Origin: Croceivirga radicis
Lineage (GTDB): Bacteria > Bacteroidota > Bacteroidia > Flavobacteriales > Flavobacteriaceae
DNA length: 64,000 nt
Direction: 5' to 3'
Assembly (NCBI RefSeq): GCF_002072105.2
Contig: NZ_MTBC01000011.1
Coordinates: 1-64,000 of the forward strand
Shown here: positions 19,920-39,431 of the stretch, piece by piece
How positions within the stretch are numbered: the first letter of the stretch is position 1
How the letters are laid out: every line of letters starts with the position of its first letter
Notes under the pieces: model-generated
The model's database searches: none
Seen by the model: only the letters and a program-made list of their open reading frames with translations
What the model was told of the DNA's origin: nothing
Translations under genes and position numbers: made by a program

Positions 19920-22676
19920 ATGCGGAATCTTTTTTATTGTCTTTTAGTGATATTATGCCATACAATCACTTTTGGACAACAGTTATTGCCTCCAATTTTT
20001 AACTACACAACATATGAATATAAAGCTGGCAGCAAAAATTGGGACATAACCATAGCTAAAGACGGTGAGCTTTATATTGCCAACAATAGAGGTTTATTGT
20101 TTTTTAATGGAGAATCTTGGCAGCTATATAAATTACCCAATAACACCATAATCCGTTCAATTACCAAAATTGGCAATCGAATTTATACCGGTTCCTATGA
20201 AGAATTTGGTTATTGGGTAAAAAATAACATTGGCCAACTACAGTATAAAAGTTTAACCCATTTAATTAGGGACCATACTTTTACAAGTGAAGAGTTTTGG
20301 GAAATTATCCCAATAAATGATAAACAAATTGCCTTTAGATCATTTTCTACAATTTATATCTATGAGCCCGAACAACAAAAAATACAGGTAATTACGCCAA
20401 CCCAAGTAATTTCTGATTTTATAGTATTTAAAGAACAACTAATAGTTGCAACTGGTACTGGTACATTATATTTATTATCAGGAGATAAACTTACAACCCT
20501 ACCCTATTCTAGTGTGCTTAAAAATAATGCCATCACAGACATGGCAATTTGGAACAATAAGTTATTCATAGGTACCAAACTCAATGGCTGCTTTACCATT
20601 GAAAATGGCAAAGCACTGGCATGGAAAACAGCACTCAATACAGAATTAAAAGCGCACCAACTTAATAAATTAAAAGTGCTAGACAACGGTGACATAGCCT
20701 TTGGAACCATAAAGAATGGACTTTACCTTTACCAAGCTAAAACCGGTAGCACAGCAATTTATAACAAAGCCACAGGCCTTCAAAATAATACGGTTTTGTC
20801 AATGCACCCTTTTAAAAATCAATTATGGATTGGTTTGGATAATGGTTTGGCAAGATTGAACTTAAACCCTGCAACCACCTATTTTACTGATACCACCGGA
20901 TCTTTAGGAATGGTATATGACATTGCAAAACATGATAATATCCAATATTTAGGAAGCAATACCGGAGTCTTTAAAGTTGAGAACGAGGGACTAACGTTTA
21001 TAGAAGGTTCTCAAGGCCATGTTTGGGACTTATCTGTTATAGAGGGCGATTTACTTTGTGGACATAACACAGGAACTTATAAAATTACAGATAGCAATTT
21101 TGAATTAATAAGCCCACATTCTGGCGGTTACACGTTTGTAAAACAGCCCAACCGCCCCAAAACCTATTTACAAGGCACTTACACAGGGCTTGTTTGGTTT
21201 GAGAAGAAGGGAATGGATTGGGAAATACATAAACTAGAAGGGTACACTACACCGGTTAAACAAATTTGTTTTGAAACAGACCACATTTTATGGACAGCAC
21301 ACCCCTATAAAGGCTACCATAGGGTACATTTAAACCCAAAAAATAAAAGAATTGTAGATAGCATTCAATCATTTGATTCCGAAGAAAATCCATCTGGCTA
21401 TAATGTGAAAATTTTCAATATAAAGAACCAAATAACGATAAACACAGATGGTAAGTGGTACCGATTTAATCCTATAAACAATCAAATTGAAAATTTTGCT
21501 GAATTTGAACCTTATGAAAATAAGGAACTATTGTATTATGACCATAGCTCTTATTGGTTTGTAAATAACGAAACACACCGGATTTTAAAAACCAATCTAG
21601 CCAGCGATTCTTTACTTATAGATGAACTCCCCATAAGACAGCGATTATCCTCGGACTCCCAAAACTTGATTCCGTATAGTAACAATACCTACGCAATACC
21701 GCTTAACGATGGTTTTGCGCTTATAGAGGAGACCAAATTATTAGCACAACAGGGAAAAGCAGAAGTTCAAAAGCCAAAATTAATAAGCCTAAACACTAGT
21801 ACTACAAATTATAATCCTATAGCTAACAAAGTAAATCTTCCATTTGCACCTTCAAGGGAATTAGAACTTAAGGTGGCGGCACCAGCTGAAACCGATTGCA
21901 GTTATACATATCAAATAGAGGGTTCAACATCATTTAATGGCTTCTCAGAAACAGGCTTTATTTCCTTATCCAATTTACCCTATGGCAGCTACACATGTAA
22001 AGTTTTTACCATGGGTATGGGTAATAAACAATCAGAACCAGTTCAATTTAGTTTTAGTATTAAACCACCTTGGTATCTTTCATGGTACAGTTTAATTGGT
22101 TATCTACTATTGCTAGGGCTTACGGTTTTTATCATTAGACTCTACAATAGGCGTAAGCTATATAAACGTAAAACAGAATTAGAGCTGCAAATGCAGCAAG
22201 AACAAAAAGAGCAATTAGCTAAAATTGAACGTGAAGAGTTGGCTAAACAGGTTAAAATAAAACAAAATGAATTAACCAATACCACTTTAAACATTGCCAA
22301 GAAAAATGAAATAATGCTGGAAATGAAAAACCTTTTACTCATGAACAAAGAAAAGTTCAGCAACTCTAAGAGGTACCAGTCTTACATAAAAAAACTAGAT
22401 CAGTCTATTGAAGACGCCGATGATTGGAATAAGTTTGAATTTCATTTTAATGAACTACATGATGATTTCTTTGAAAAGCTTTTAAAGGAATATCCATCAT
22501 TGACCCCTAAAGACTTAAGGCTCTGTGCATATTTAAAAATGAATTTAACCAGTAAAGAAATAGCACCATTAATGGGCATTTCGGTCAGAGGTGTAGAAAT
22601 ACATCGCTATAGACTTAGAAAAAAACTAAACCTAGATAGCAGCGAAAATCTATCTAACTTTTTAATTACCATTTAA
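19920..22676 (+). CDS. Membrane-spanning PUL regulator: beta-propeller, Y_Y_Y domain, LuxR-type HTH
   Basis: A 918-residue regulator with a signal peptide (ends TFGQ at about 20), a periplasmic ligand-binding region made of Reg_prop-like propeller repeats (about 25-630), a Y_Y_Y domain (about 640-710), one transmembrane helix (about 716-740), a coiled coil (about 745-800) and a C-terminal LuxR-type helix-turn-helix (about 858-918, LTPKDLRLCAYLKMNLTSKEIA). There is no kinase or receiver domain, so it differs from the hybrid two-component systems that control many Bacteroides PULs. Such proteins would bind DNA from the membrane. Its place just before susC on the same strand makes it the likely activator of this locus, sensing an oligosaccharide in the periplasm. 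Confidence 0.88.
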   Translation: MRNLFYCLLVILCHTITFGQQLLPPIFNYTTYEYKAGSKNWDITIAKDGELYIANNRGLLFFNGESWQLYKLPNNTIIRSITKIGNRIYTGSYEEFGYWVKNNIGQLQYKSLTHLIRDHTFTSEEFWEIIPINDKQIAFRSFSTIYIYEPEQQKIQVITPTQVISDFIVFKEQLIVATGTGTLYLLSGDKLTTLPYSSVLKNNAITDMAIWNNKLFIGTKLNGCFTIENGKALAWKTALNTELKAHQLNKLKVLDNGDIAFGTIKNGLYLYQAKTGSTAIYNKATGLQNNTVLSMHPFKNQLWIGLDNGLARLNLNPATTYFTDTTGSLGMVYDIAKHDNIQYLGSNTGVFKVENEGLTFIEGSQGHVWDLSVIEGDLLCGHNTGTYKITDSNFELISPHSGGYTFVKQPNRPKTYLQGTYTGLVWFEKKGMDWEIHKLEGYTTPVKQICFETDHILWTAHPYKGYHRVHLNPKNKRIVDSIQSFDSEENPSGYNVKIFNIKNQITINTDGKWYRFNPINNQIENFAEFEPYENKELLYYDHSSYWFVNNETHRILKTNLASDSLLIDELPIRQRLSSDSQNLIPYSNNTYAIPLNDGFALIEETKLLAQQGKAEVQKPKLISLNTSTTNYNPIANKVNLPFAPSRELELKVAAPAETDCSYTYQIEGSTSFNGFSETGFISLSNLPYGSYTCKVFTMGMGNKQSEPVQFSFSIKPPWYLSWYSLIGYLLLLGLTVFIIRLYNRRKLYKRKTELELQMQQEQKEQLAKIEREELAKQVKIKQNELTNTTLNIAKKNEIMLEMKNLLLMNKEKFSNSKRYQSYIKKLDQSIEDADDWNKFEFHFNELHDDFFEKLLKEYPSLTPKDLRLCAYLKMNLTSKEIAPLMGISVRGVEIHRYRLRKKLNLDSSENLSNFLITI

Positions 22677-22957: not shown

Positions 22958-25900
22958 ATGAATTTGACTAGGAGCATTTTGCTATTCCTGTTATTTAGCT
23001 ATCCAATTATACTTTTTGGACAAGATAATCTAACAATTACAGGAACAGTTATTGACGACAAAGGACTACCGCTTCCAGGCGCAAGTATAGTTCTTAAAAA
23101 CGGTACAACAGGTACCCAAACAGACTTTGATGGCAATTACACGTTGGCCAACATACCCAACAATAGTACGTTGGTCTATAGCTATATTGGTTTTAGCCCA
23201 AAAGAAATTACCGTAGATGGTAACACAACCATAGATGTGACCTTACTACCAGACACACAAAACTTAGATGAGGTTGTTGTAGTAGGTTATGGAACACAAA
23301 AAAAAGCAGACTTAACGGGGAGCATTGTAAGTGTTTCAACAGAAGAAATAGAAAAAACCATTTCTGCTAACCCTGTACAATCCTTACAAGGTAAAGTTGC
23401 AGGTGTACAAATTGTTTCCCCCGGTACACCAGGTGCATCACCTACTGTAAGGATTAGGGGTTTAGGTACATTTTCTAATGCTACCAGCTTATTATACGTG
23501 GTGGATGGTATGTTCTATAGTAATATCGACTTCTTAAATCCAAACGATATTAAATCTATGAACATCTTAAAAGATGCTTCATCTTCTGCAATTTATGGGG
23601 TTAGGGCCGCCAACGGGGTAATTATTATAGAAACCAAATCTGGTAGTAAAAACCGAAAGCCACAAATAGAGTACAATGGCTACACCGGTATACAAAGGGC
23701 GCAGAATGTACTTAAAATGGCCAATGCAGAGCAATTTACCACCATGGCCTTAGAATCTGGTTCTTCTGCAGATGCACAGTTTATACTTAATGCCATGCAA
23801 CGGTATGGCCGCAGCCGTGTAAACCCCAATATTCCAGATGTGAATACGGATTGGTATGATGAGATCATGCGGGATGGTATTATCCAAAACCATAGTTTGT
23901 CTGTTACGGGTGGTACGGAAAATGTTAGCTATTCTACTGGGATTAACTACTTTACCCAAGAGGGTTTACTAGACATGAAAAATAAGTACGAACGTTTTAA
24001 CATTAGGTCCAAATTGGACGTGGATGTGACGGACAATTTAAAAATTGGTGTAAACACCGTGTTTAGTAACGCCACACAATACGCTCCAGAAAATTCGGCT
24101 TGGTTCAAAGCCTATTTTGCAGTGCCTATACTCCCCGTTTTTGATGCACAAAATACAGAGGCTACACCAAATTCATACGCCAATGCAAGAGCATTGGGTT
24201 ACAGGGGAACCCAAAATCCATTTCCGGATATGGCCTACAATGAAAACCGATTAAAAATCAGAAAATTACTAGCTAATTTTTATGCAGAAACGGATTTAAT
24301 CCCTGAAAAATTAACCTTTAAGACTACTTATAATTTAGATTTTTCCGCGTTAGAAGAGCGTTACGTAAACCTACCCTACAACATGGGCTTTGGAGACGAA
24401 AGACGCTCATCTATCAACAGGCAACAAAATAACTTCTTTAACCAAATCTGGGATAATACCCTTACGTATACAGATAAAATTGGTGAAGACCACAACATTA
24501 CGCTTTTGGCAGGTGCATCGTACAGAGATGAAGAAGCAAATAGATTTGGTGCAACAGGTAGTGATATTGCCGGGATAGACTATGAAACTTCATGGTACTT
24601 AAATTTTGCGGATCCTTTAACGTTCAATAATAATGTTAATGAAAGTAATAGCAGAATTTACGGCCAATCCTATTTTGGGCGTTTGTCTTATAATTTTAAA
24701 GACCGCTATTTGGTATATGGTACCTTTAGGGCAGACCGTTCATCAAAGTTTACCCAAGAACAGTGGGGTTACTTCCCTTCTGTAGGTTTGGGTTGGGTAG
24801 TTTCTCAAGAACCCTTTTTACAAGAAAGTAATTTCCTAGATTTCTTTAAACTGCGTGCTAGTTGGGGAAGATTGGGTAATGATAACGTACCCGCGAGTTC
24901 AGGAGCTAATACCATAACCAATACTACCGTAGATTTAGGAGATACACCGGTTACGGGTGTTACCGCTACTAGCACCTTTACAGATTTAACTTGGGAGGTT
25001 GTAGAAGAATTAGATTTTGGTTTTAATCTTACTACACTTAACAGTAGACTTTCCTTAGATGCAGATTATTACATACGGGACACGGAAAATGCCATAATGC
25101 CAGTTTATATACCTATTGCCAACGTAACGGTAAATCGTAATTCTGGGGTCATCCGCAACTCAGGTATTGAGGTTGCAGCCAGCTGGTCAGACAACATAAA
25201 TGAAGATTTCTCATACAGCATAGGTGCCAATATAACCACGGTTAAAAACGAAACCATTTCGTTAGAAGACGAGAGGGGTTATATAGATTCTGGATCAGCG
25301 GAATTTAGACAACGTACGTTGGTGGGCGAACCATTGTATGCCTTTTACGGATATCAAACTACGGGCGTTTATCAAAATCAAGCAGAGATAGATAACGATC
25401 CTGTTGCGCAAAATGTAATTGCAGAAGGCCAAAACATAGAACCTGGCTATTTTAAATACAGGGATGCTAATGGCGATGGTTTTATAAATGATGAAGACCG
25501 AATGGTGCTAGGTTCTTTTTTGCCAAAATTCACCTATGGAGGTAACATTGGGCTCAACTATAAGCAATTTGGGTTTACCATGGATTTTTACGGCCAAACC
25601 GGCAATAAAATCTTGAACCGAAAAAGAGGTGAAGTTATTTTTACCAATGACACCAATATGGATGCAGATCTGGCCATTAACCGTTGGCACGGTGAAGGTA
25701 CAAGTAACAGCTACCCGTCCTCTGCTGGTCTTAGAAATAGCTGGAACCAGCGTTTAAGCAATTTTTGGGTAGAAGATGGAGATTTCTTTAGAATTCAAAA
25801 TGTTCAACTTTCCTACACCTTAAAAGGAGACCAACTTAAAGGCAAGTTTCCTGATTTTAAATTCACGCTAACCGCAGAAAGACCGCTAACACTGTTTAGC

Positions 25901-25996
25901 TACAATGGCTTTAATCCAGAAGTGAGTGATGGCGTAGACCGCCAAACCTATCCGGTACCTGCCATTTACACATTTGGTGTTAATGTAAAATTATAA
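22958..25996 (+). CDS. SusC-like TonB-dependent transporter (beta-1,2-glucan-type PUL)
   Basis: Outer-membrane transporter that, with its SusD partner, imports oligosaccharides using TonB energy. The 1012 residues comprise a signal peptide (ends LFGQ near 22), a carboxypeptidase-regulatory-like N-terminal extension (about 25-100, NLTITGTVIDDKGLPLPGAS), the TonB-box region DEVVVVGYGTQKKADLTGSI, the plug domain (about 120-235) and a barrel ending in FGVNVKL. It opens the structural part of the locus; susD starts 10 nt later. The substrate is inferred from the GH144 enzymes downstream. Confidence 0.93.
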   Translation: MNLTRSILLFLLFSYPIILFGQDNLTITGTVIDDKGLPLPGASIVLKNGTTGTQTDFDGNYTLANIPNNSTLVYSYIGFSPKEITVDGNTTIDVTLLPDTQNLDEVVVVGYGTQKKADLTGSIVSVSTEEIEKTISANPVQSLQGKVAGVQIVSPGTPGASPTVRIRGLGTFSNATSLLYVVDGMFYSNIDFLNPNDIKSMNILKDASSSAIYGVRAANGVIIIETKSGSKNRKPQIEYNGYTGIQRAQNVLKMANAEQFTTMALESGSSADAQFILNAMQRYGRSRVNPNIPDVNTDWYDEIMRDGIIQNHSLSVTGGTENVSYSTGINYFTQEGLLDMKNKYERFNIRSKLDVDVTDNLKIGVNTVFSNATQYAPENSAWFKAYFAVPILPVFDAQNTEATPNSYANARALGYRGTQNPFPDMAYNENRLKIRKLLANFYAETDLIPEKLTFKTTYNLDFSALEERYVNLPYNMGFGDERRSSINRQQNNFFNQIWDNTLTYTDKIGEDHNITLLAGASYRDEEANRFGATGSDIAGIDYETSWYLNFADPLTFNNNVNESNSRIYGQSYFGRLSYNFKDRYLVYGTFRADRSSKFTQEQWGYFPSVGLGWVVSQEPFLQESNFLDFFKLRASWGRLGNDNVPASSGANTITNTTVDLGDTPVTGVTATSTFTDLTWEVVEELDFGFNLTTLNSRLSLDADYYIRDTENAIMPVYIPIANVTVNRNSGVIRNSGIEVAASWSDNINEDFSYSIGANITTVKNETISLEDERGYIDSGSAEFRQRTLVGEPLYAFYGYQTTGVYQNQAEIDNDPVAQNVIAEGQNIEPGYFKYRDANGDGFINDEDRMVLGSFLPKFTYGGNIGLNYKQFGFTMDFYGQTGNKILNRKRGEVIFTNDTNMDADLAINRWHGEGTSNSYPSSAGLRNSWNQRLSNFWVEDGDFFRIQNVQLSYTLKGDQLKGKFPDFKFTLTAERPLTLFSYNGFNPEVSDGVDRQTYPVPAIYTFGVNVKL

Positions 25997-26006: not shown

Positions 26007-27554
26007 ATGAATACTATAAAACAAAACTTTAAACCTTGGTTTGCCGTACTTTCCGCATGCTTTATACTACTCTCTTGTAGTGATAGGTTCGATGACCGTG
26101 AAGGACAGTTAAACGCAGACGATTTAGATTATTCTGATACGGATAATATGATACAAGCTTTGGTAGGCGCATACAATATTATTGCTACCAGGGGTTGGGA
26201 AGAACCTTTATTACTATCGGTTCGTGGAGATGATGTTAATGCTGGCGGATTAGGTGACCAGCAACCGTTTACGGACACGGATAATTTTATCTACGACCAA
26301 AATTATTGGATGTACAATAGCCTTTGGAATGTACATTATGGAGACATCGTAAACTTGAATACGGAGATAGAACTCATCAATAATTTTAAAGATTTAGCAA
26401 CACCAGAAGATGCCCAAACGGCAGACCAGTACATTGCGGAAATCACCGTTTTGCGGGCTTGGTTGCACTTTAATTTAGCGCGCGTATTTCAAGATGTTTT
26501 TATCATAGAAACTACGCAGCCCGATGGTGAAATTGCCAATGGTGTGGCTACTAAAGATGAAGTAATGCAATACATTATTACTCAGATGGATGCTGCAATA
26601 CCTTTATTACCTAATCTTAGACCTAATGAACGTACGGACATTCCTGGAGGCGTAACCCGTTTTACGGCAATGGCCATAAAGGCTATGGCCCAATTAGAGT
26701 TACAAGATTATACAGGTGTTGCCAGTACTACCGGAGAAATTATCAATTCGGGCAAGTTTTCTTTGTATGATGATTTTTACGGATTATTTAAAAAACCCGG
26801 AGAATTGAGTAATGAAAGTTTGTTTGAACTGCAATTTTCTGATTTTGGCAATAGTACCGGAGACAGTTTTTACCATCTGTTAGCTCCATTTGGTCCACAG
26901 GGTTGGACACCCGCTAGGGAAAACGCATCTGGTGGATGGGGCTTTTATGAACCTAGTTTAAAGTTCATAAAATTTATGTTAGACCGCGGTGAAACCACCC
27001 GTTTAGAAAGTAGTGTCTTGTTTACGGATAGAGGTATAGCAGAATTACAAACAGACCCTAACTACGCTACTTTACCCAGTTTTGTTAGCAACACCACAAG
27101 AGATGGCGATGTTATTAACGATTATGCAAGAGCCTTATTTGCTAGTGGTAAACACTACCTACCCTCCGTACAACTTACCGAAGGTAGAAATGATTACGGC
27201 GGTGGTAAAAACATGATTGTTATTAGATATGCAGAAATTCTGTTGATGTATGCAGAAGCAGTTACCAGAGGTGGTACACCAAACGGTATAAGTGCGGACC
27301 AAGCGGTAAACTTAATTCGTACAAGAGCCAACATGCCCACTGTAACAGGTGTTACTTCAGAAGATGTAATGGAAGAAAAATTTGCAGAATTGGCATTGGA
27401 ATGGGGCATTCGCTATTACGATATGATTCGTTTGGACAACTACACCGAGTTGAGCTATGACGGCAGAACTTTTACGGCCGATGATGAGTATTTACCTTAT
27501 CCGCAAGCACAAGTAGACGCTTTGCCTTTAGGTGGTACCAACAGCAACCAATAA
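26007..27554 (+). CDS. SusD-like surface glycan-binding lipoprotein
   Basis: Lid and binding partner of the preceding SusC. It has a lipoprotein signal with acylated Cys (FILLSCSDRFDD), the SusD/RagB fold with tetratricopeptide-like helices and the family segments RAWLHFNLARVFQDV near residues 152-166 and MIVIRYAEILLMYAEAV near 400-416. The 515-residue length is usual. It lies between susC (10-nt gap) and the LamG lipoprotein (21-nt gap), so the three are one operon. Confidence 0.93.
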   Translation: MNTIKQNFKPWFAVLSACFILLSCSDRFDDREGQLNADDLDYSDTDNMIQALVGAYNIIATRGWEEPLLLSVRGDDVNAGGLGDQQPFTDTDNFIYDQNYWMYNSLWNVHYGDIVNLNTEIELINNFKDLATPEDAQTADQYIAEITVLRAWLHFNLARVFQDVFIIETTQPDGEIANGVATKDEVMQYIITQMDAAIPLLPNLRPNERTDIPGGVTRFTAMAIKAMAQLELQDYTGVASTTGEIINSGKFSLYDDFYGLFKKPGELSNESLFELQFSDFGNSTGDSFYHLLAPFGPQGWTPARENASGGWGFYEPSLKFIKFMLDRGETTRLESSVLFTDRGIAELQTDPNYATLPSFVSNTTRDGDVINDYARALFASGKHYLPSVQLTEGRNDYGGGKNMIVIRYAEILLMYAEAVTRGGTPNGISADQAVNLIRTRANMPTVTGVTSEDVMEEKFAELALEWGIRYYDMIRLDNYTELSYDGRTFTADDEYLPYPQAQVDALPLGGTNSNQ

Positions 27555-27575: not shown

Positions 27576-29945
27576 ATGAAAAACATATATATTCTATTAG
27601 GTATCATTTGCCTTGCCTTAATTTCTTGTGAGCAAGGAATAGATGATATTACCAAAGTTGATCCAGGAGCTGATGAGACCGCTCCTCAAATCACCTTGAA
27701 CTATCCTACAGAAGGAACCGAAATTAAGGTTTTTGAAGAGACAACCAGTTTAGATATAGATTTTGAAGTAAAGGACGACATAGAGGTAAAATCAATTAAT
27801 ATTTTACTAGACGGTAGCTCAATTGCTCAGTTTTCTACCTTTACGGATTATAGAATTGTTCCCATCCAATACACCCACCAAGGCTTAGAAGACGGTGAAC
27901 ATGAACTTGCTATTACCGCAATAGATTTAGAAGGAAAGTCCACTACGGTTAGCGCGCAATTCACCAAAGCCCCACCCTACCAACCACTCTTTGAAGGTGA
28001 ACAATTTTACATGGCCTTTGATGGGGATTATATGGATTTAATAAGCTTTAAAAAAGCTACTGCCGTGGAGAGTCCTGGTTTTGCTGGGGATGGTTACGTG
28101 GGTGCAGATGCCTATAAAGGAGCGGAAAATAGCTATTTATCCTTTCCTATGGAAAACCTAAAAACTTCAGAATTCAGTGCGGCGTTTTGGTATAAAGTAG
28201 ATGCTAACCCAGACAGAGCGGGTATTTTGGTAGTCGGTGATGATGAAGAGGATCGTTTTCAAGGTTTCCGTTTGTTTAGAGAAGGGAACGGAACGGAGCA
28301 ACGCATAAAGCTAAACGTAGGAACGGGAGCTGGAGAAAGCTGGAACGATGGTGGCGTTATTGATGTTGCCGCTGGTGAATGGGTACACGTGACCATGGCT
28401 ATTTCTGCAACAAAAACCACTATTTTCTTTAACGGTGTAGAAATGCTATCTGCTACTTTGGAAGCTCCAATAGATTGGACCGGTTGTGAAACTATGACCA
28501 TAGGTGCTGGTGGCCCTACCTTTAGTTATTGGAATCACCTATCCGATAAAAGTAGTATAGATGAATTGCGCCTTTTTGATAAGGCATTGACCGCTACGGA
28601 TATTCAATTAATGATTAACGCTTTAAATCCCTATACACCACAATATGATGGCGAGTCTTTTTACATGCCGTTTGATGGCGATTTTATCGACTTGGTTGGT
28701 AGTAAAGCGGGGAGTGCTGTGGGCACCCCAACATTTGTTACAGATGGCAAAGAAAACCAAGCCCTTATGGGTGCAACCGATGCTTACGTAAATTACCCTT
28801 CTACAGGCTTAACCTCAGCAGAATTTAGTGCCAGTATGTGGTACCGCGTAAATGCAAGTCCAGACCGGGCGGGTATTTTGGTCATTGGTGATGATGAGGC
28901 AGATAGATTGCAAGGCTTCCGCCTATTTAGAGAAGGTTCGGCAGACGAACAACGCATCAAACTAAATGTTGGTACGGGAACCGCTGAGGTTTGGAATGAT
29001 GGTGATGTGATTGATGCAACAACAGGAGAATGGGTACACATTGCGGTTACCATAGCTAATGACAAAAATACCATTTACATTAATGGTTCAGAGGCACGGT
29101 CATCCAATATGGACGCACCTATAGATTGGACAGGCGTTGGTAACTTTACCATTGGTGCTGGCGGACCTACGTTTAGCTATTGGGACCACTTATCAGATTT
29201 AAGCGCTATAGATGAATTACGATTTTTCTCCAAGGCACTTAGCCCAGAAGAGGTAGCAGAAATAGCGGGGGGTACTTTTACACCCAAAAACTTTGGGTCT
29301 ACATTATTTCTACCTTTTGATGGCGATTATATAGATGATAACAATGGATTAGCCGCCACCATGGAAGGTACACCCGCTTTTGCCGGGGAAAGCAAAGAAG
29401 GTTCAGATGCCTATGCAGGTACAGCAGACGCGTATCTTACATTCCCCATAGATGGTTTATTAAACAACCAATTTAGCGGTGCCTTTTGGTACAAAGTAGA
29501 TGGCACCCCAGACAGGGCGGGTATTCTTACTGTGGCTCCGCCTATGATAGATGAGAGTACTAACGATTTATCCGCAGGCTTTCGTTTATTTAGAGAAGGT
29601 TCTGCAACGGAGCAACGTATAAAATTACACCTTGGAACCGCGGATGGTGATGTTTGGAACGACGGGGAAGTTTTAGATGTTACCGCTAATGAATGGGTAC
29701 ACATTGCCTTCACAGTTACCGAGACTGCCACCCAAATCTATTTTAATGGTGAGCCTGTTGCCAATTTTGGTGATATGACGGATAAAGTAATAAGTTGGGA
29801 AAATTGCTCCTTGTTATCCATTGGTTCTGGAGCACCAAATTTTATGGCATGGGGGCATTTATCGGATTCTAGTTATATAGACCAATTGTACCTATTTGAC
29901 CGTGCCTTATCTCAAGAAGAGATACAGGCCTTAATGAACCCGTAG
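27576..29945 (+). CDS. Surface lipoprotein with Ig-like domain and three LamG repeats
   Basis: Probable surface glycan-binding protein, 789 residues. A lipoprotein signal (ICLALISC, Cys18-19 region) is followed by an Ig-like domain (about 33-130) and three tandem concanavalin/LamG domains at about 138-350, 357-565 and 575-785. The repeats share near-identical cores such as PDRAGIL(V/T)V, GFRLFREG, EQRIKLN(V/L)GT, EWVHI and SIDELRLFDKAL, so they arose by duplication of about 655 bp. No catalytic domain is seen. Three binding modules on one anchor would raise avidity for a polymer. It sits where Bacteroidota PULs usually place their surface binding protein, right after susD. Confidence 0.85.
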   Translation: MKNIYILLGIICLALISCEQGIDDITKVDPGADETAPQITLNYPTEGTEIKVFEETTSLDIDFEVKDDIEVKSINILLDGSSIAQFSTFTDYRIVPIQYTHQGLEDGEHELAITAIDLEGKSTTVSAQFTKAPPYQPLFEGEQFYMAFDGDYMDLISFKKATAVESPGFAGDGYVGADAYKGAENSYLSFPMENLKTSEFSAAFWYKVDANPDRAGILVVGDDEEDRFQGFRLFREGNGTEQRIKLNVGTGAGESWNDGGVIDVAAGEWVHVTMAISATKTTIFFNGVEMLSATLEAPIDWTGCETMTIGAGGPTFSYWNHLSDKSSIDELRLFDKALTATDIQLMINALNPYTPQYDGESFYMPFDGDFIDLVGSKAGSAVGTPTFVTDGKENQALMGATDAYVNYPSTGLTSAEFSASMWYRVNASPDRAGILVIGDDEADRLQGFRLFREGSADEQRIKLNVGTGTAEVWNDGDVIDATTGEWVHIAVTIANDKNTIYINGSEARSSNMDAPIDWTGVGNFTIGAGGPTFSYWDHLSDLSAIDELRFFSKALSPEEVAEIAGGTFTPKNFGSTLFLPFDGDYIDDNNGLAATMEGTPAFAGESKEGSDAYAGTADAYLTFPIDGLLNNQFSGAFWYKVDGTPDRAGILTVAPPMIDESTNDLSAGFRLFREGSATEQRIKLHLGTADGDVWNDGEVLDVTANEWVHIAFTVTETATQIYFNGEPVANFGDMTDKVISWENCSLLSIGSGAPNFMAWGHLSDSSYIDQLYLFDRALSQEEIQALMNP

Positions 29946-29979
29946 ACTCAGTTAATACAAATCTTCAAGTTAATTTTAA

Positions 29980-31332
29980 ATGCGATTAATTTTAATGCAC
30001 TTGGCAATTGCATCCTTACTCCTAGGATGCAATGGCCAAAAGAAACAAGAAACCAAAACAACGCAGACCAAAAAGGTTGTGCTTTCTGATGAGCAATTAT
30101 TGGATAGCATACAGTACCAGACGTTCAATTATTTTTGGGAAGGTGCAGAGCCAAATTCCGGCCTAGCTAGAGAGCGTATACATTTAGATGATATTTACCC
30201 AACACACGACAAGGACATTATTACTACTGGCGGTTCTGGTTTTGGTCTAATGGCCATATTGGTGGGTGTAGAGCGTAATTTTATAACCAGAGCCCAAGCT
30301 TTAGAACGGTATGAAAAAATTGTAACCTTTTTAGAAAAAGCAGACCGTTTTAATGGTGCTTGGCCCCATTGGTTGCTGCCCAATGGCAAGGTTACCGCCT
30401 TTAGTAAAAAAGATAATGGCGGAGATTTGGTAGAGACTGCTTTTTTAGTGCAGGGGCTACTTACCGTTAGAGAATATTTTAAAGAAGGGTCTTCTAAAGA
30501 GCAAGAATTAGCAAACAGAATTCAAAAACTGTGGGAAGGCGTAGAATGGAATTGGTACACCAAAGGCAATGAAGATGTTTTGTATTGGCATTGGAGTCCA
30601 GAATATGGTTGGGAGATGAATTTTCCTGTTGGTGGTTACAATGAAGCCTTAATCATGTATATTTTGGCTGCTGGTTCTCCTACTCATTCCATACAGAAAT
30701 CGGTTTATGATAAAGGTTGGGCTAGAAATGGAGCCATTGCAAAAGATACTACTTATTACGGTCTAGAAACGGAGCTAGACCACTATGAGCATGATGCTTC
30801 TCCCGTAGGACCATTATTTTGGGCACACTACTCCTATTTGGGTTTAAATCCAAAAGGTCTAAAAGACCAATATGGCGATTACTGGAAGTTGAACAAAAAC
30901 CATGCTAAAATCCATTACAAACATGCCATTGCCAATCCTAATAACTTTAAAGGCTACGGTGAAAAAAATTGGGGTTTAACTTCTAGTTATTCCGTTAAGG
31001 GATATGCCGGACACCGACCCGATAATGACCTTGGCGTAATCTCGCCTACAGCTGCTTTATCTAGCATGCCCTATACGCCTAAAGAAAGCATTACTTACTT
31101 AAGAAGTTTATACCAAGAACAAGATAGTTTAGTAGGTAAATACGGCCCGTTTGATGCATACAGTCACCAAGAAAATTGGTACTTACCCAGATATTTGGCT
31201 ATAGACCAAGGCCCCATCCCAGTAATGATAGAAAATTACCGAAGTGGTTTGTTCTGGAATTTATTTATGAAGAATACAGACGTACAAAATGGCTTGGAAA
31301 CTTTAGGCTTTTCAATCTCTGAAAATCCCTAA
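29980..31332 (+). CDS. GH144 family glycoside hydrolase, first copy (lipoprotein)
   Basis: Member of the family once called glycoamylase-domain proteins (PF10091) and now GH144, whose characterised members are endo-beta-1,2-glucanases or release sophorose from beta-1,2-glucooligosaccharides. The 450 residues start with a lipoprotein signal (LAIASLLLGC). Conserved segments are TTGGSGFGLMAILVG near 78-92, GAWPHWL near 126, DLVETAFL near 150, LWEGVEWNWY near 184-193, GPLFWAHYSYLGLNPK near 285-300 and IDQGPIPVMIENYRSGLFWN near the end. The next copy starts 1 nt after its stop. Endo- versus exo-action cannot be told from sequence. Confidence 0.85.
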   Translation: MRLILMHLAIASLLLGCNGQKKQETKTTQTKKVVLSDEQLLDSIQYQTFNYFWEGAEPNSGLARERIHLDDIYPTHDKDIITTGGSGFGLMAILVGVERNFITRAQALERYEKIVTFLEKADRFNGAWPHWLLPNGKVTAFSKKDNGGDLVETAFLVQGLLTVREYFKEGSSKEQELANRIQKLWEGVEWNWYTKGNEDVLYWHWSPEYGWEMNFPVGGYNEALIMYILAAGSPTHSIQKSVYDKGWARNGAIAKDTTYYGLETELDHYEHDASPVGPLFWAHYSYLGLNPKGLKDQYGDYWKLNKNHAKIHYKHAIANPNNFKGYGEKNWGLTSSYSVKGYAGHRPDNDLGVISPTAALSSMPYTPKESITYLRSLYQEQDSLVGKYGPFDAYSHQENWYLPRYLAIDQGPIPVMIENYRSGLFWNLFMKNTDVQNGLETLGFSISENP

Positions 31333-31333
31333 T

Positions 31334-32701
31334 ATGACCTACAGAAATTTCATAGTTGCTTTATTAATCGTCGTCTCCCTATCTTCCTGTGGAGGCGATG
31401 ATTATACCTACACGCCTATCGAATTTCCTGATGATGCTACTACGGTTGAAGAACCCAATATTACGGACGAAGCCCTGTTAGACTTAACGCAAGAAACCAC
31501 TTTTGCCTATTTCTGGGATTATGCAGAAAGTAATTCTGGTGCCGCCAAGGAGCGTTATCATCCTAAAGAACCCCAAAAAGATGCCCAAGTGGTTACCACG
31601 GGTGGTTCTGGTTTTGGACTTATGGCAATTTTGGTTGGTATAGAAAGAGGCTTTATCACCAGAGAACAAGGCGTAGAAAGGATTGAAAAGATACTAGATT
31701 TTTTTACAGTTGCCGATAGATTTCATGGTGCTTGGCCACATTGGTTAAATGGTAGTACGGGCAACGTAATACCGTTTAGCGATAAAGATGATGGGGGTGA
31801 TTTAGTAGAAACTGCTTTTTTGGCACAAGGCTTAATCTGTATTAGCGAATACTTTAAAAACGGTACGGAAGCAGAAAAAATGCTTGCTAACAAAGCTACT
31901 GAACTATGGGAGGGTGTGGAATGGAATTGGTATACCCAAAACCAAAATGCTTTGTATTGGCATTGGAGCCCTACGTATGGCTTTGATATTAATTTAGAAT
32001 TAAAGGGATACAACGAAACGCTCATTACTTTTATTCTTGCCGCAGCTTCTACGGATTACAGTATTGATAAAGAAGTATACACCCAAGGTTGGGCGAGCAA
32101 TGGAGGTATTGCTTCAAATACCAATCAATATGGGTATCCCCTTGTGGTAAACCATGCTGGCGGTTCTAATTATGGCGGCCCCTTGTTTTGGGCACATTAT
32201 TCCTACTTAGGCTTAAATCCCAAAGAACTTTCGGACCAGTATGTAAACTATTGGACTGCCAATGTGAATCACACTAAAATCAACCTTAATTACAGTATAG
32301 AAAACCCAAAAGGGTTTAAAGATTACAGTGAAAACTGCTGGGGCCTAACCGCCAGTTATTCTAGAAATAACGACGGTAGTATTGGGTATAACGCCCATCA
32401 ACCAAGCAATGACATTGGTGTAATTTCACCAACAGCTGCAATCAGTTCTATTGTCTATACCCCAGAAGAATCGCTTAAAGCCATGCGCTATTTCTATTCT
32501 CATAAAGATAAACTACTAGGTCCTGCAGGCTTCTACGATGCTTTTAGCCCTGAATATAATTTTTGGGTAGCAGATGCTTATTTGGCCATTGACCAAGGTC
32601 CACAAATTATTATGATAGAAAACTACCGTAGTGGTTTGCTGTGGAACCTGTTTATGCAGTCTGAAGCAGTACAAAACGGGTTACAAAAACTAGGATTTTA
32701 A
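31334..32701 (+). CDS. GH144 family glycoside hydrolase, second copy (lipoprotein)
   Basis: Paralogue of the preceding gene with the same order of motifs (TTGGSGFGLMAILVG, GAWPHWL, DLVETAFLAQGL, LWEGVEWNWYT, GPLFWAHYSYLGLNP, GVISPTAAISS, AIDQGPQIIMIENYRSGLLW). It has 455 residues with its own lipoprotein signal (VVSLSSC) and a different N-terminal spacer. The two copies are clearly divergent, so a split of labour (one endo, one exo releasing sophorose) is a reasonable inference from the two activities known in GH144. It is 1 nt downstream of the first copy and 3 nt upstream of the esterase gene. Confidence 0.85.
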   Translation: MTYRNFIVALLIVVSLSSCGGDDYTYTPIEFPDDATTVEEPNITDEALLDLTQETTFAYFWDYAESNSGAAKERYHPKEPQKDAQVVTTGGSGFGLMAILVGIERGFITREQGVERIEKILDFFTVADRFHGAWPHWLNGSTGNVIPFSDKDDGGDLVETAFLAQGLICISEYFKNGTEAEKMLANKATELWEGVEWNWYTQNQNALYWHWSPTYGFDINLELKGYNETLITFILAAASTDYSIDKEVYTQGWASNGGIASNTNQYGYPLVVNHAGGSNYGGPLFWAHYSYLGLNPKELSDQYVNYWTANVNHTKINLNYSIENPKGFKDYSENCWGLTASYSRNNDGSIGYNAHQPSNDIGVISPTAAISSIVYTPEESLKAMRYFYSHKDKLLGPAGFYDAFSPEYNFWVADAYLAIDQGPQIIMIENYRSGLLWNLFMQSEAVQNGLQKLGF

Positions 32702-32704
32702 ACT

Positions 32705-33523
32705 ATGAAATCAAAAAAACTAATACTCCTGATTGGTCTTTTTATTCTTGGGCAAATGGCCTTAGCTCAAAACCAAGAAAAATTTTCCAAAGAAGTCTTT
32801 GTTCAAGGGGCAGACAGCTTACTTTTTAGGCAATTATTACCAAAAGACTTCAATCCAAAAAAAAGTTATCCTTTGGTGCTGTTCTTACACGGTGCTGGAG
32901 AGCGTGGTGCGGATAACACAAAGCAACTTACCCATGGTGCTGCTGTTTTTGCCACAGATAGAATACAAGAACAGTTTCCTGCCATAGTACTTTTTCCGCA
33001 ATGCCCAACAGACGATTACTGGTCTCAAGTTACCGTAGATAGAAGTAATTATCCCGTTCAATTAGATTTTAGGTATCAGGAAGGCCCTACCCAATCCATG
33101 AAAATGGTTTTACAATTATTGGACACTTATTTACAACAAGAGTTTGTAGACAAAGTCCAAGTATATGTTATGGGATTATCTATGGGAGGTATGGGTACGT
33201 TTGAGTTGATATACCGTAAACCTGAAACTTTTGCAGCAGCTATACCAATTTGCGGTGCTGGCGACCCCAAAAACGTTAATACCTATGCACAAACAACGCC
33301 TATATGGGCTTTTCATGGTGCCCAAGACAATGTAGTAGCACCTACCCAATCTTTAGCAATGGTAAATGCACTATTAGAAGCAGGGGCGCATCCAAAGTTT
33401 ACTCTATATGATTTTGCCAACCACAACAGCTGGGATCCTGCTTTTAAAGAACCAGACCTGTTACCGTGGTTGTTTAGTAAGACCAAAAATCAGAATACAG
33501 AAAAAAAGACGAATGAAAAATAA
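32705..33523 (+). CDS. Alpha/beta-hydrolase esterase (CE1/phospholipase-carboxylesterase type)
   Basis: Secreted or periplasmic esterase of 272 residues. A signal peptide (IGLFILGQMALAQ) precedes an alpha/beta-hydrolase fold with the oxyanion motif LFLHGAGERG near residues 58-67, nucleophile Ser159 in GLSMGGMG, the acid in GAQDNVV near 220 and the base in FANHNSW near 245. Proteins of this type are common in glycan loci, where they remove acyl or aromatic groups from polysaccharides. The setting suggests de-acylation of the glucan taken up here. The gene overlaps the GH3 gene by 11 nt. Confidence 0.8.
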   Translation: MKSKKLILLIGLFILGQMALAQNQEKFSKEVFVQGADSLLFRQLLPKDFNPKKSYPLVLFLHGAGERGADNTKQLTHGAAVFATDRIQEQFPAIVLFPQCPTDDYWSQVTVDRSNYPVQLDFRYQEGPTQSMKMVLQLLDTYLQQEFVDKVQVYVMGLSMGGMGTFELIYRKPETFAAAIPICGAGDPKNVNTYAQTTPIWAFHGAQDNVVAPTQSLAMVNALLEAGAHPKFTLYDFANHNSWDPAFKEPDLLPWLFSKTKNQNTEKKTNEK

Positions 33524-35819
33524 ACTTATCGCCTTAGGCCTATTGGTACTTATAACCCTAAGTTGCAATGAACAAAAGCCAGCCCAACCATCCCAAGAAC
33601 TACCGTACCAGAAAGAAGTAGATTCCATCTTGGCGCTGATGACTTTAGAAGAAAAGATTGGTCAATTAAATTTACCCTCTTCTGGGGATATTACTACAGG
33701 CCAAGCACAAAGCTCAGATATTGCTAGCAAAATTGCAGCAGGTAAAGTTGGGGGTTTATTCAATATAAAAACCGCGGCAAAAATTAAAGAAGTACAACGG
33801 ATTGCCGTAGAAGAAAGTCGGTTAAAAATTCCATTGTTATTTGGCATGGATGTTATTCACGGCTACCAAAGCACCTTCCCTATTCCACTGGGTCTTGCTG
33901 CCAGTTGGGATATGGATTTGATACAACAAACCGCAAGAGTTGCCGCTCAAGAGGCTTCTGCAGACGGTATAAACTGGACTTTTTCCCCTATGGTGGATAT
34001 CTCTAGAGACCCTCGGTGGGGTAGAATTTCCGAGGGCTCTGGAGAAGACCCTTTTCTTGGTGGTAAGATAGCTGCTGCAATGGTTAAAGGATATCAAGGA
34101 GATGATTTATCGGCAAACAATACCTTATTGGCCTGTGTTAAGCACTTTGCGTTGTATGGTGCCTCAGAAGCTGGTAGAGATTACAATACGGTAGACATGA
34201 GTAGAGTACGCATGTACAATGATTATCTACCACCGTATAAAGCTGCTATTGATGCCGGAGTAGCCTCTGTTATGGCATCTTTTAATGAAGTTGATGGTAT
34301 ACCGGCAACTGCCAATAAGTGGTTGTTAACAGAAGTGCTTAGAGAACAGTGGGGGTTTAATGGTTTTGTAGTTTCAGATTATACCGGAATTAATGAAATG
34401 GTGGCTCATGGTATTGGTAACCTACAACAAGTAAGTGCCAGAGCATTAAATGCCGGTTTGGATATGGATATGGTAGGCGAAGGATTTTTGACCACACTTA
34501 AACAATCGCTAGAAGAAGGATTGGTTTCTGAAATTAATATAGACACTGCTGTTAAACGCATCTTAACCGCTAAATACCAACTCGGTTTATTTGATGACCC
34601 TTACAAATATTGCGATACCACCCGTACTAAAAACGAAGTTTTCACCAAAGAGAATAGAGATTTTGCTCGTAAAGTGAGTGCAGAGTCTATGGTGCTTTTA
34701 AAAAACGAAGGCGTTTTACCCCTTAAAAAATCGGGCTCAATTGCCTTAATTGGCCCGCTGGCGAATACACCACACAACATGGCCGGTACCTGGAGTGTTG
34801 CCACACAGCAAGAAAAGTCTATTTCTGTTTTAGAAGGATTGAAAGAAGTTGCAGGTGAAGCGGTCACCATAAACTACGCAAAAGGTAGCAATGTTGCCTA
34901 TGACGAAGCCTATGAAAAACGCATTACCATGTTTGGTAAAGAGATTACCAGAGATGGCAGAACAGATGCGCAACTATTGGCAGAAGCCCTCGCTGTTGCC
35001 AAAAAATCTGACGTTGTTGTGGCGGCCATAGGAGAAACCGCAGAACGCAGCGGTGAAAGTAGTAGTATTACCAATTTGCAAATACCAAAAGCCCAGCAAG
35101 ACTTATTAGATGCACTTTTAGCCACAGGCAAACCCGTGGTAGTTGTGTTATTTACAGGGAGGCCACTGGCCATAACAAAAATGCAAGAGGAGGCACCTGC
35201 AATTTTAAATGCATGGTTTCCGGGGAGCGAAGCTGGTTTAGCTATTGCCGATGTATTGTTTGGAGCGGTAAATCCGTCTGGAAAATTAACCGCTACCTTT
35301 CCAAGAAATGTAGGACAAGTACCCCTGTTCTATGCTCATAAAAATACAGGTAGACCATTGGACCCAGCCAAAACAGCCGACTGCGGATTTCAAAAATTTA
35401 CCAGTAATTATTTAGATGTCTGCAATACCCCATTATATCCATTTGGTTTTGGATTAAGCTATACCACTTTTAGCTATTCTGATGTTACCCTAGATAAGGC
35501 AGAACTGGGACCAAACGACTCTATAACCGTTTCTGTTAAGGTAAAAAATACGGGTGATTTTGATGGTAAAGAAGTGGTACAACTATATGTAAGGGATGTT
35601 GTTAGGAGCACTACGCCTCCAGTTCGTGAACTAAAGGGATTCAAAAAAATATTCTTGAAGAAGGGCGAAGAACAAATCGTACAATTTAAACTGCAAACTG
35701 AAGATTTGAAATTCTATGATACGGACCTCAACTTTATTGCGGAACCCGGTGAATTTCAAGTGTTCGTTGGCGGGGATAGCACCACTGAACTACAAAATAG
35801 ATTTGAACTTGTAAATTAA
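33513..35819 (+). CDS. GH3 beta-glucosidase
   Basis: Family 3 glycoside hydrolase of 768 residues, BglX-like. A lipoprotein signal (LGLLVLITLSC) is followed by the TIM-barrel domain (about 30-345), with VKHFALYGASEAGRDYNTVD near 205-225 and the nucleophile Asp289 in GFVVSDYTG, the alpha/beta sandwich domain (about 385-600) and a C-terminal fibronectin III-like domain (about 665-760). An upstream start at 33408 is rejected because the signal peptide begins at 33513. In this PUL it should hydrolyse sophorose and short beta-1,2-glucooligosaccharides to glucose, as GH3 partners of GH144 do. Confidence 0.92.
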   Translation: MKNKLIALGLLVLITLSCNEQKPAQPSQELPYQKEVDSILALMTLEEKIGQLNLPSSGDITTGQAQSSDIASKIAAGKVGGLFNIKTAAKIKEVQRIAVEESRLKIPLLFGMDVIHGYQSTFPIPLGLAASWDMDLIQQTARVAAQEASADGINWTFSPMVDISRDPRWGRISEGSGEDPFLGGKIAAAMVKGYQGDDLSANNTLLACVKHFALYGASEAGRDYNTVDMSRVRMYNDYLPPYKAAIDAGVASVMASFNEVDGIPATANKWLLTEVLREQWGFNGFVVSDYTGINEMVAHGIGNLQQVSARALNAGLDMDMVGEGFLTTLKQSLEEGLVSEINIDTAVKRILTAKYQLGLFDDPYKYCDTTRTKNEVFTKENRDFARKVSAESMVLLKNEGVLPLKKSGSIALIGPLANTPHNMAGTWSVATQQEKSISVLEGLKEVAGEAVTINYAKGSNVAYDEAYEKRITMFGKEITRDGRTDAQLLAEALAVAKKSDVVVAAIGETAERSGESSSITNLQIPKAQQDLLDALLATGKPVVVVLFTGRPLAITKMQEEAPAILNAWFPGSEAGLAIADVLFGAVNPSGKLTATFPRNVGQVPLFYAHKNTGRPLDPAKTADCGFQKFTSNYLDVCNTPLYPFGFGLSYTTFSYSDVTLDKAELGPNDSITVSVKVKNTGDFDGKEVVQLYVRDVVRSTTPPVRELKGFKKIFLKKGEEQIVQFKLQTEDLKFYDTDLNFIAEPGEFQVFVGGDSTTELQNRFELVN

Positions 35820-35823
35820 ATAG

Positions 35824-37461
35824 ATGCGGTGGTTTAAGTGCTTGTTGCTTATCTTTTTCCTAATTGGATTTGTTCATTGTAAAGAACAATTCAATAAAGA
35901 AGCTGTAGAAGTTTCTAGACCACCCAACATTATATTTATCATGGCAGATGACCATGCAGAACAAGCTATTAGTGCATATGGGCATCCTATTGGTAAATTG
36001 GCGTCAACACCAAACATTGACCGCATTGCTAAAAATGGAGCATTATTTACGCACAACTATTGTACCAACTCCATCTGCGGACCCAGCAGAGCGGTGATAT
36101 TAACGGGCAAAATGAGTCATGAAAATGGCTTTAGGATGAATGGCGACCGCTTTAACGGGAATCAAGCAACGCTTCCTAAATTTTTAAAACAGCTAGGTTA
36201 CAACACCGCCTTAGTAGGCAAATGGCACTTACACGGTAATCCTCAAGGTTTTGACCATTGGGAAATATTGGACGACCAAGGAAAATACTACAATCCAGAT
36301 TTCATTTCTAAAGAGGATACTACCCGTATTGAAGGATACGCTACTGACATTATCACGAATAAAGCGCTCAACTGGTTGTCTAAAAATAGAAAGGACAAGT
36401 CTCCATTCTTTTTAATGGTACATCAAAAAGCACCACATAGAAATTGGATGCCCGCTTTAAGGCATTTAAATATGTATGACGCTGTCCAATTTCCACTACC
36501 TAAAACTTACTTTTCTAAATTTCCAAATCAAGTAGCGGCCCAGCAACAACTACAGACCATTTATGAAGATATGTATGAGGGTCACGATTTAAAGCTGAGT
36601 ACTGGCCCAAATACCACTGAACTTAGCAACAATCCATGGACAGATGATTTTAACCGGATGACCCCCGAACAAAAAGCAAGGTGGAATGCTGCCTACCTAC
36701 CCAAAAACAATGCTTTTTATAAGGCCAATCTTCATGGCGAAGACCTAGCCAAATGGAAATACCAGCGGTACATGCAAGAATACATGGCTACCGTAGCCGC
36801 AGTAGATGAAGGTGTGGGCAAAATTTTAGATTATTTAGAAAAAGAAGGGCTAGACCAAAACACATTAGTGGTGTACACTACAGACCAAGGATTTTATTTG
36901 GGCGAAAATGGTTGGTTTGACAAGCGATTTATGTACGAAACTGCCTTTAAAATGCCTTTATTAATGCAATTACCCGGAGTAATTGAGCCGGGAATAATGA
37001 TTGATGCCCTTACCCAAAATTTAGATTTTGCCCCAACTTTTTTAGACCTAGCAGGTGGTAAATCTATGGCCGCAGGGATGCAAGGCACTTCTTTTATGCC
37101 ATTACTCACTGGAAATTCATATGATTTTAAAGATGCTATTTATTACCATTTTTATGATTACCCAGCTTTTCATATGGTAAAAAGGCATTATGGCGTACGT
37201 ACCAAACGCTACAAATTGATTCATTTTTATGATGACATTGATACCTGGGAATTTTACGATTTACAAAAAGACCCTAATGAGCAATACAATGCTATTAATG
37301 ATGAAAACTATGCTCATACTATTGCTCTACTTCATAAAAAATTAGATAGCTTACAAAAGGACTATCGCATTACAGCAAAAGAGTTTGAGCCAGTTTCTCC
37401 AGAAAAAGTTAAAAAAGCATACAAAGACTTTGAACGGCTACGGGGTATTCCATTAAAATAA
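35824..37461 (+). CDS. S1-family sulfatase
   Basis: Formylglycine sulfatase, 545 residues, with an N-terminal export signal (LLLIFFLIGFVHC; the Cys may be acylated but the box is atypical). The metal-binding start IIFIMADDH near residues 37-45 and the modified cysteine in C-G-P-S-R (Cys85) are intact, as are GKWHLHG near 135 and YTTDQGFYLGENGWFDKR near 350. It removes sulfate esters and needs a formylglycine-generating enzyme encoded elsewhere. It follows the GH3 gene by 4 nt and closes the operon, which is unusual for a beta-1,2-glucan locus. Its 3' end faces the NRAMP-like gene across 14 bp. Confidence 0.9.
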   Translation: MRWFKCLLLIFFLIGFVHCKEQFNKEAVEVSRPPNIIFIMADDHAEQAISAYGHPIGKLASTPNIDRIAKNGALFTHNYCTNSICGPSRAVILTGKMSHENGFRMNGDRFNGNQATLPKFLKQLGYNTALVGKWHLHGNPQGFDHWEILDDQGKYYNPDFISKEDTTRIEGYATDIITNKALNWLSKNRKDKSPFFLMVHQKAPHRNWMPALRHLNMYDAVQFPLPKTYFSKFPNQVAAQQQLQTIYEDMYEGHDLKLSTGPNTTELSNNPWTDDFNRMTPEQKARWNAAYLPKNNAFYKANLHGEDLAKWKYQRYMQEYMATVAAVDEGVGKILDYLEKEGLDQNTLVVYTTDQGFYLGENGWFDKRFMYETAFKMPLLMQLPGVIEPGIMIDALTQNLDFAPTFLDLAGGKSMAAGMQGTSFMPLLTGNSYDFKDAIYYHFYDYPAFHMVKRHYGVRTKRYKLIHFYDDIDTWEFYDLQKDPNEQYNAINDENYAHTIALLHKKLDSLQKDYRITAKEFEPVSPEKVKKAYKDFERLRGIPLK

Positions 37462-37475
37462 CCCAACAATCTTCC

Positions 37476-38765: not shown

Positions 38766-39431
38766 TTATTGTAAGGATTTGATGGTTTCTAAAGTAGAAG
38801 CCACTAATTGCCGTAACCCATTGTAATCTTTATTTTCTAAAATAGTTTTAGAGATGAGCTTAGACCCCATACCTACGCAAGTTACTCCAGCATCAAACCA
38901 ACCTTTTAGATTGTCTTTGTCTGTACTTACCCCGCCCGTTGGCATTACACTAGTCCAAGGTTGTGGGCCTTTAATGGCTTTTACAAAGCCAGGACCATAA
39001 GTAGAACCTGGGAATAATTTTACTAGCTCACACCCCAACTCTTCTGCAGCATTTATTTCTGTTAAGCTACCGCAACCCGGAGACCATAGTACTTTTCTAC
39101 GGTTGCAAACCTTGGCAATATCTTCTCTTAAAGACGGTGTTACTATAAAGTTGGCTCCCATTTGTATAAACAAGCTAGCCGCCGCTGCATCTGTAATGGA
39201 ACCAACGCCCATAATCATTCCCGGAAGTTCTTTAATTGCATATTTGTTCAGCTCTAAAAACACTTCGTAAGCAAAATCACCTCTAGCGGTAAACTCTAAC
39301 AAACGTGCCCCCCCATCATAACAGGCTTTTAGTACTTTTTTGCCCAATTCTACATCTGGGTGATAGAATAAAGGCACCATCCCGGTGTCCTTCATTGCTT
39401 GTATTACTTCAATTCTTGAATACTGTGCCAT
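38766..39431 (-). CDS. kdgA: KDPG aldolase (2-keto-3-deoxy-6-phosphogluconate aldolase)
   Basis: Cleaves KDPG to pyruvate and glyceraldehyde-3-phosphate, the last step of alginate monomer catabolism. About 221 residues, TIM barrel, with the Schiff-base lysine in LVKLFPGS near residue 137 and the phosphate-binding PTGGVS near 163. I start at ATG 39431 (MAQYSRIEVIQAMKD), the usual family start; the ATG-type start at 39470 would overlap kdgK and add an unrelated extension. It lies 7 nt behind kdgK. Confidence 0.93.
   Translation of the reverse strand: MAQYSRIEVIQAMKDTGMVPLFYHPDVELGKKVLKACYDGGARLLEFTARGDFAYEVFLELNKYAIKELPGMIMGVGSITDAAAASLFIQMGANFIVTPSLREDIAKVCNRRKVLWSPGCGSLTEINAAEELGCELVKLFPGSTYGPGFVKAIKGPQPWTSVMPTGGVSTDKDNLKGWFDAGVTCVGMGSKLISKTILENKDYNGLRQLVASTLETIKSLQ

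Follow-up and report, generated by a model that had tools for sequence, protein, structure and literature searches.

Which polymer is consumed by a bacterial locus that joins enzymes for beta-1,2-glucan to a sulfatase? The question is raised by a stretch of 64,000 nucleotides from Croceivirga radicis (contig NZ_MTBC01000011.1, positions 1 to 64,000; hereafter the window), in which the list of open reading frames (ORFs) and profile matches place a regulator and eight further genes at positions 19920-37461, all on the forward strand. The eight genes run in the order susC, susD, triple-LamG lipoprotein, GH144a, GH144b, esterase, GH3, and S1 sulfatase. As far as sequence can tell, and with a probability that we put at roughly 0.6, this is a polysaccharide utilization locus (PUL) for a beta-1,2-linked glucan bearing 6-O-sulfate and probably ester groups on its glucose. 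The features are as follows:

19920..22676, forward: LuxR-type regulator with a long N-terminal region (PF00196)
22958..25996, forward: SusC-like TonB-dependent transporter (TIGR04056, 825 bits)
26007..27554, forward: SusD-like lipoprotein (PF07980, PF14322)
27576..29945, forward: lipoprotein with three Laminin_G_3 domains (PF13385, three stretches) and an Ig-like domain (PF17957)
29980..31332, forward: GH144a, endo-beta-1,2-glucanase-like lipoprotein (PF10091; 5gzk/5gzh, 568/566 bits)
31334..32701, forward: GH144b, endo-beta-1,2-glucanase-like lipoprotein (PF10091; 5gzk, 521 bits)
32705..33523, forward: secreted alpha/beta-hydrolase esterase with GLSMGG (PF00326, PF02230, PF00756; nearest among solved structures, the 3doh esterase, 161 bits)
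33513..35819, forward: GH3 beta-glucosidase-like lipoprotein (PF00933, PF01915, PF14310; 3u48, 1088 bits; 5xxl, 1063 bits)
35824..37461, forward: S1 sulfatase (P0005), S1_11-like, formylglycine site C85 in CGPSR (PF00884, PF16347; 9s03, 782 bits; 5g2v, 523 bits)

Spacing among the eight genes is at most 34 nt, with 10 nt between susC and susD, 21 between susD and the LamG gene, 34 between the latter and GH144a, 1 between the two GH144 genes, 3 between GH144b and the esterase, and 4 between GH3 and the sulfatase. The GH3 reading frame, whose product has N, C, and Fn3-like domains, begins at 33408 as listed; an ATG at 33513 precedes a lipoprotein-like signal and is probably the start, and the esterase and GH3 genes then overlap by 11 nt. 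A preliminary description of this DNA had proposed just such a compact set behind susC-susD-LamG, and the coordinates, families, gaps, and overlap at 33513 bear it out. The features by which Bacteroidota PULs are recognized, a susC-susD pair with co-directional carbohydrate-active enzymes and a regulator, are all present, and in maps of the relatives' regions a homolog of the regulator adjoins susC in most related loci. Between 22500 and 38000, promoter-like matches numbered 36, against 43.9 (standard deviation 7.6) in shuffled sequence, and terminator-like matches 13 against 14.2 (standard deviation 4.2); neither kind was enriched, and these counts speak neither for nor against a separate sulfatase transcript.

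Conserved linkage ties the sulfatase to GH144. Among 199 Flavobacteriaceae genomes, including that of the window, a profile search with PF10091 recovered GH144 above the cut-off in 51, at least two copies being present in 34 of these. Sulfatase matches in the same sample (at most seven candidates scored per genome, E <= 1e-60) fell into two groups, one of at least 59% identity, treated as orthologs, and one of at most 54%; four genes of the ortholog group were reported as two pieces of 60-71%. The group comprises 31 genes in 30 genomes, all with GH144, giving 30/51 GH144-positive versus 0/148 GH144-negative genomes (Fisher 3e-22, an optimistic value because the genomes are related). The surroundings of GH144 were retrieved for the 50 other genomes, up to 40 kb or less on short contigs, and 29 of the 31 copies were found within 17 kb of GH144 (7 to 16,531 nt), 25 on the same strand and four on the opposite strand, divergent and upstream of the regulator. 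The two unlinked copies are one on another contig (genome G015) and a second copy in genome G143, in a locus without GH144. Because the gene moves in place and strand and yet stays linked, it is probably kept in the locus by selection. The comparison of gene order in relatives, which the preliminary description had called for, therefore disfavors a chance neighbor, since the linkage is conserved across genera.

A second sample, the best 80 of 539 confirmed GH144 loci from named genomes, extended no more than 10 kb to either side, and more distant sulfatases were therefore missed. The orthologous sulfatase was present in 16 of the 80: Allomuricauda/[Muricauda]/Flagellimonas (5), Winogradskyella (2), Leeuwenhoekiella (2), and one locus each from Zobellia, Maribacter, Flavivirga, Mariniflexile, Polaribacter, Arenibacter, and an uncultured Flavobacteriaceae bacterium. 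With the loci sorted into families by record title and an Algicola metagenome-assembled genome counted in, this amounts to 16/30 Flavobacteriaceae versus 0/50 other loci, among which are those of Pedobacter, Mucilaginibacter, Prevotellaceae, and Muribaculaceae. Judging by the genera, we take all 16 loci to be marine; this distribution is in line with what has been published on marine GH144 loci (see below), family and habitat being confounded. A different S1 sulfatase (30-48% identity) was seen in 4/50 other loci, from Maribellus, Pontibacter, Flavisolibacter, and Adhaeribacter; in the latter three (L168, L170, and L184) its identity to P0005 is 30-34%, and sulfatases may therefore have been recruited repeatedly to GH144 loci, perhaps in non-marine settings as well.

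The sulfatase itself points to the kind of sulfate ester that might be removed. Its CGPSR motif is intact (C85-G-P-S-R, with PF00884 and PF16347), just as it had been read in the preliminary description. Among solved structures, similarity was highest to 9s03, followed by 5g2v (523 bits) and 7p24 (501 bits), with a further match to the exo-L-galactose-6-sulfatase 7lha (311 bits); among relatives to which an activity is assigned, 5g2v, an entry labelled N-acetylglucosamine-6-sulfatase, comes nearest. CGPSR, DDH, KWH, HRNW, and DQGF, which we presume to be active-site motifs, align with 5g2v and 7p24, structures that we take to be BT4656 and BT3177. The latter two are S1_11 enzymes (PMC10154612), and by its nearest characterized relatives the window sulfatase is assigned as S1_11-like, grouping with the 6-O-sulfatases of that subfamily. 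S1_11 enzymes recognize 6-sulfated sugars through a His for O3 and an Asp/Arg for O4, two S1_11 mucin enzymes attack from the non-reducing end, and the N-acetyl-binding region is missing in about half of the subfamily, aquatic members especially (PMC10154612). The candidate recognition triad in the window sulfatase is D366, R368, and H450, invariant in 46/46 ortholog rows (44 of them distinct, L155 duplicating G144 and L164 duplicating G018); directly before H450 all 46 rows have F, which sets the clade apart from 5g2v and 7p24, where Glu stands there. Given the GH144 and GH3 partners, our best guess at the target is a glucose-6-sulfate at the non-reducing end, and L-galactose-6-sulfate may be an alternative.

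The 9s03 chain is 99.8% identical over 526 amino acids to an ORF of Mariniflexile fucanivorans DSM 18792 that sits inside a GH144 locus, and 63% identical to the window sulfatase; the structure of a direct ortholog is therefore public. The nucleophile position is S in the 9s03 chain and C in the Mariniflexile gene, as in a catalytic mutant. Searches by structure id, and by Mariniflexile fucanivorans with sulfatase, found no paper on this enzyme among titles and abstract openings of the open-licence literature in PubMed Central (PMC). The C. radicis genome encodes four PF00884 proteins and an FGE-family protein, for which PF03781 is matched and no NCBIfam model exceeds its cut-off (best GldK, 151 of 350 bits). 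Its short motif GGSFLCSASYC, which we liken to the FGE active site, marks it as a putative sulfatase maturation enzyme; anSME (TIGR03942), searched for in the same genome, was not found.

The backbone is suggested by the GH144 pair. GH144a and GH144b are 55% identical, both have the CpSGL structures (5gzk/5gzh) as their nearest solved relatives, and in alignment seven CpSGL-equivalent residues (D135, D139, E142, E211, F268, Y330, and D400) are intact in both. Together with the gene context, these sequences support the beta-1,2-glucan backbone that had been supposed at the outset. In the retrieved regions of the 51 genomes, the equivalents of the first six residues are conserved in 86/86 GH144 ORFs and that of D400 in 85/86; a strict motif count gave 65/86, and the alignment-based count was used instead. 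E211, F268, and Y330 are residues of the clan, and the roles of the CpSGL residues are treated in PMC12102758, where D400 mutants are described as still active. A separate observation concerns region L066:8717-10891, which encodes a GH144 protein of 724 amino acids, longer than its neighbors and carrying N where CpSGL has D400, its gene being flanked on both sides by ordinary GH144 genes.

The two paralogs may act on different sides of the outer membrane. Surface lipoproteins are sorted by acidic residues behind the lipid-bearing Cys; GH144a has the signal CNGQKK, with no acidic residue at +2 to +6, and GH144b has CGGDD. GH144b is therefore predicted to be surface-exposed and GH144a periplasmic. 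Among recognized signals, at least two acidic residues at +2 to +6 were present in 0/32 GH144a-type and 15/37 GH144b-type proteins, compared with 34/39 for SusD and 20/21 for LamG, the type being assigned by the better BLAST match to one of the two window proteins and the signals by a regular expression, which overlooked or wrongly placed some of them, including that of the window SusD. CSDRFDD after the signal of that SusD suggests a cell-surface position, and the LamG lipoprotein, with acidic residues after its lipid Cys, is likely a surface glycan-binding protein.

From the gene content, order, linkage, and residues observed, we infer what each enzyme does and where, which position carries the sulfate, and that the polymer exists at all. 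GH144b would cut the chain at the surface, where the LamG lipoprotein and SusD would retain the pieces for import by SusC into the periplasm; there, GH144a would shorten them, the esterase would strip acyl groups, an exo-acting 6-O-sulfatase would expose the non-reducing end, and GH3 would free glucose in the last step. Of the decorated substrate proposed in the preliminary description, the sulfate has support through the functional tie between sulfatase and GH144 that linkage indicates. The claim for an ester is weaker because esterase homologs (45-50% identity) occur in Pedobacter GH144 loci, and for this reason the esterase was rejected as a mark of marine decoration.

Several points weigh against the reading as a sulfated beta-1,2-glucan PUL. 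We know of no natural sulfated beta-1,2-glucan. The open-licence PMC literature gave no match for sulfated 1,2-glucan with marine polysaccharide utilization, and among the matches listed for osmoregulated periplasmic glucan and sulfate, by titles and abstract openings, none concerned sulfated glucans. Twenty-one of the 51 GH144-bearing genomes are without the orthologous sulfatase, six of them having no locus genes around GH144 or a contig edge there, and the second sulfatase copy of G143 (2.43 Mb) belongs to a susCD locus that lacks GH144. That locus (L129:10020-20000 and L130:1-7579) holds GDPD, GH16, a cytochrome-TPR protein, GH31, and GH92. Under half of the GH144b-type proteins show the acidic-residue mark, and with F in place of Glu before H450 the specificity of the sulfatase may differ. 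Aquatic S1_11 enzymes are said to recognize L-galactose via the same triad (PMC10154612). On the side of a producer, no annotated sulfotransferase was found near opgH in ten plasmid regions, a small plasmid-only sample, chosen from 57 records with a match and with incomplete gene tables; the regions come from marine or saline Rhodobacterales (Sulfitobacter, two regions; Qingshengfaniella; SC52; Roseicitreum; Dinoroseobacter) and from Sphingomonas, Bradyrhizobium, Azospirillum, and Acetobacter.

The best-surviving alternative, itself rather unlikely, is a mixed algal or bacterial heteropolysaccharide of which beta-1,2-glucan is one part, the sulfate being on another sugar, e.g., a side-chain 6-sulfated N-acetylglucosamine or L-galactose. 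S1_11 enzymes accept both of these (PMC10154612; matches 5g2v and 7lha), the G143 copy without GH144 fits such a polymer, and related loci carry a wider set of partner genes. Counted with one to three query proteins each at a bit-score floor of 90, and in the retrieved regions of the 51 genomes, GH43-like proteins occur in 24/51, a BD-FAE esterase in 17/51, GH2 in 10/51, and phosphoesterases besides, with GH97 also seen; homologs of the window esterase lie near GH144 in 33/51, and 24 of these genomes are among the 30 that bear the sulfatase; three of the 33 homologs have only 35-38% identity. Against a heteropolysaccharide, positions 19920-38753 hold no glycosidases beyond GH144 and GH3, so that side-chain enzymes would have to be elsewhere with the sulfatase still kept. 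Moreover, GH43-like and esterase homologs are also found in Pedobacter GH144 loci, and GH43-like proteins in those of Muribaculaceae and Prevotellaceae; it is therefore the orthologous sulfatase, not these genes, that marks the difference in this sample.

This wider set suggests that relatives meet a more decorated, partly phosphorylated polymer. Among the phosphoesterases, PF03372 phosphatase-like proteins occur in 15/51 genomes, one of them related to 4c1r, labelled mannosyl-6-phosphatase (206 bits), and PF00149 proteins in 6/51. From these observations comes a second alternative, to which we give little credence, in which the substrate is an acylated, phosphorylated periplasmic (osmoregulated) glucan of marine proteobacteria, from which the S1 enzyme would take a phosphate-type group instead of sulfate. 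The idea of a periplasmic glucan was probed once, by the negative look for a sulfotransferase near opgH in the ten plasmid regions. In both Sulfitobacter plasmid regions an OpgC-domain gene adjoins opgG and mdoH, and Roseicitreum and Dinoroseobacter have sulfatase-like and CDP-alcohol phosphatidyltransferase genes near mdoH (L226 and L227), a possible glucan phospho-decoration set. The window enzyme, however, is far nearer to carbohydrate 6-O-sulfatases (5g2v, 523 bits) than to 2vqr and 2w8s (102 and 95 bits), of the phosphonate monoester hydrolase type. A hitch-hiking sulfatase for unrelated sulfated monosaccharides in an ordinary beta-1,2-glucan locus would account for the GH144-bearing genomes that lack the gene, but is very improbable given its absence from all GH144-negative genomes, the linkage of nearly all copies despite varied position and strand, and the 4-nt gap to GH3.

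Returning to a sulfated beta-1,2-glucan, one speculative extension, which we consider a long shot, is that marine bacteria put sulfate on O6 of their beta-1,2-glucans where land and enteric bacteria use phosphoglycerol, the locus, widespread in flavobacteria, being a dedicated recycling system. If true, this would be a phosphate-sparing swap, and the "ubiquitous yet unknown marine polysaccharide" about which Lapebie et al. (2019; PMC6499787) wrote would thereby be identified.

Just beyond the sulfatase gene, an Nramp transporter gene occupies 37476-38753 on the opposite strand, 14 nt away, and right beside the GH144 locus an alginate-type gene set follows:

38766-57038, reverse: alginate-type set, with two PF08787 proteins, PF05426/PF07940 and PF14592 proteins, a PKD protein, and a SusD
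38766-57038, reverse: further members of the set, with KDPG aldolase, PfkB kinase, two SDR proteins, an MFS protein, and a GntR protein

How does the locus compare with known systems? The window GH144 proteins share the seven checked residues with CpSGL of Chitinophaga pinensis (5gzh/5gzk). The Bacteroides beta-1,2-glucan cluster, whose GH3 enzyme 5xxl we take to be BT_3567, likewise pairs GH144 with a GH3 partner. Both of these systems differ in the sulfatase, a word absent from the main text of PMC12102758 and PMC8861115. Closer is Mariniflexile fucanivorans, in which the sulfatase of 9s03 is part of a GH144 locus that shares the core genes of the window locus. The preliminary description knew of no beta-1,2-glucan PUL with a sulfatase, which two papers contradict: such loci are already described in marine relatives, and the present one is therefore not the first of its kind. 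Lapebie et al. (2019; PMC6499787) noted that GH144 PULs of marine Bacteroidetes carry an added sulfatase and deduced an unknown sulfated marine counterpart of beta-1,2-glucan, the same conclusion as here, in a survey statement that, in its available part, is without sulfatase subfamily, orthology, or structure. Maribacter dokdonensis 62-1 (PMC8072126, 2021) has two GH144, one GH3, susCD, and sulfatase genes beside AlgPUL1 with kdg genes; the window locus also adjoins an alginate-type set, with only the Nramp gene in between, and differs in having an esterase, none being named for the Maribacter cluster in the available text. As far as the literature searches reach, the additions made here are the counts of orthologs and of their linkage, the assignment of the sulfatase as S1_11-like, the link to 9s03, and the predicted division of the GH144 pair between surface and periplasm. 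Within the same reach, the marine polysaccharide to which these enzymes point is without a description. The question posed in 2019 is thereby narrowed to which 6-O-sulfated glucan these enzymes cut, and reagents for it can be named from a cultured strain: the sulfatase behind 9s03, an ortholog of the window enzyme, and the GH144 pair that adjoins it.

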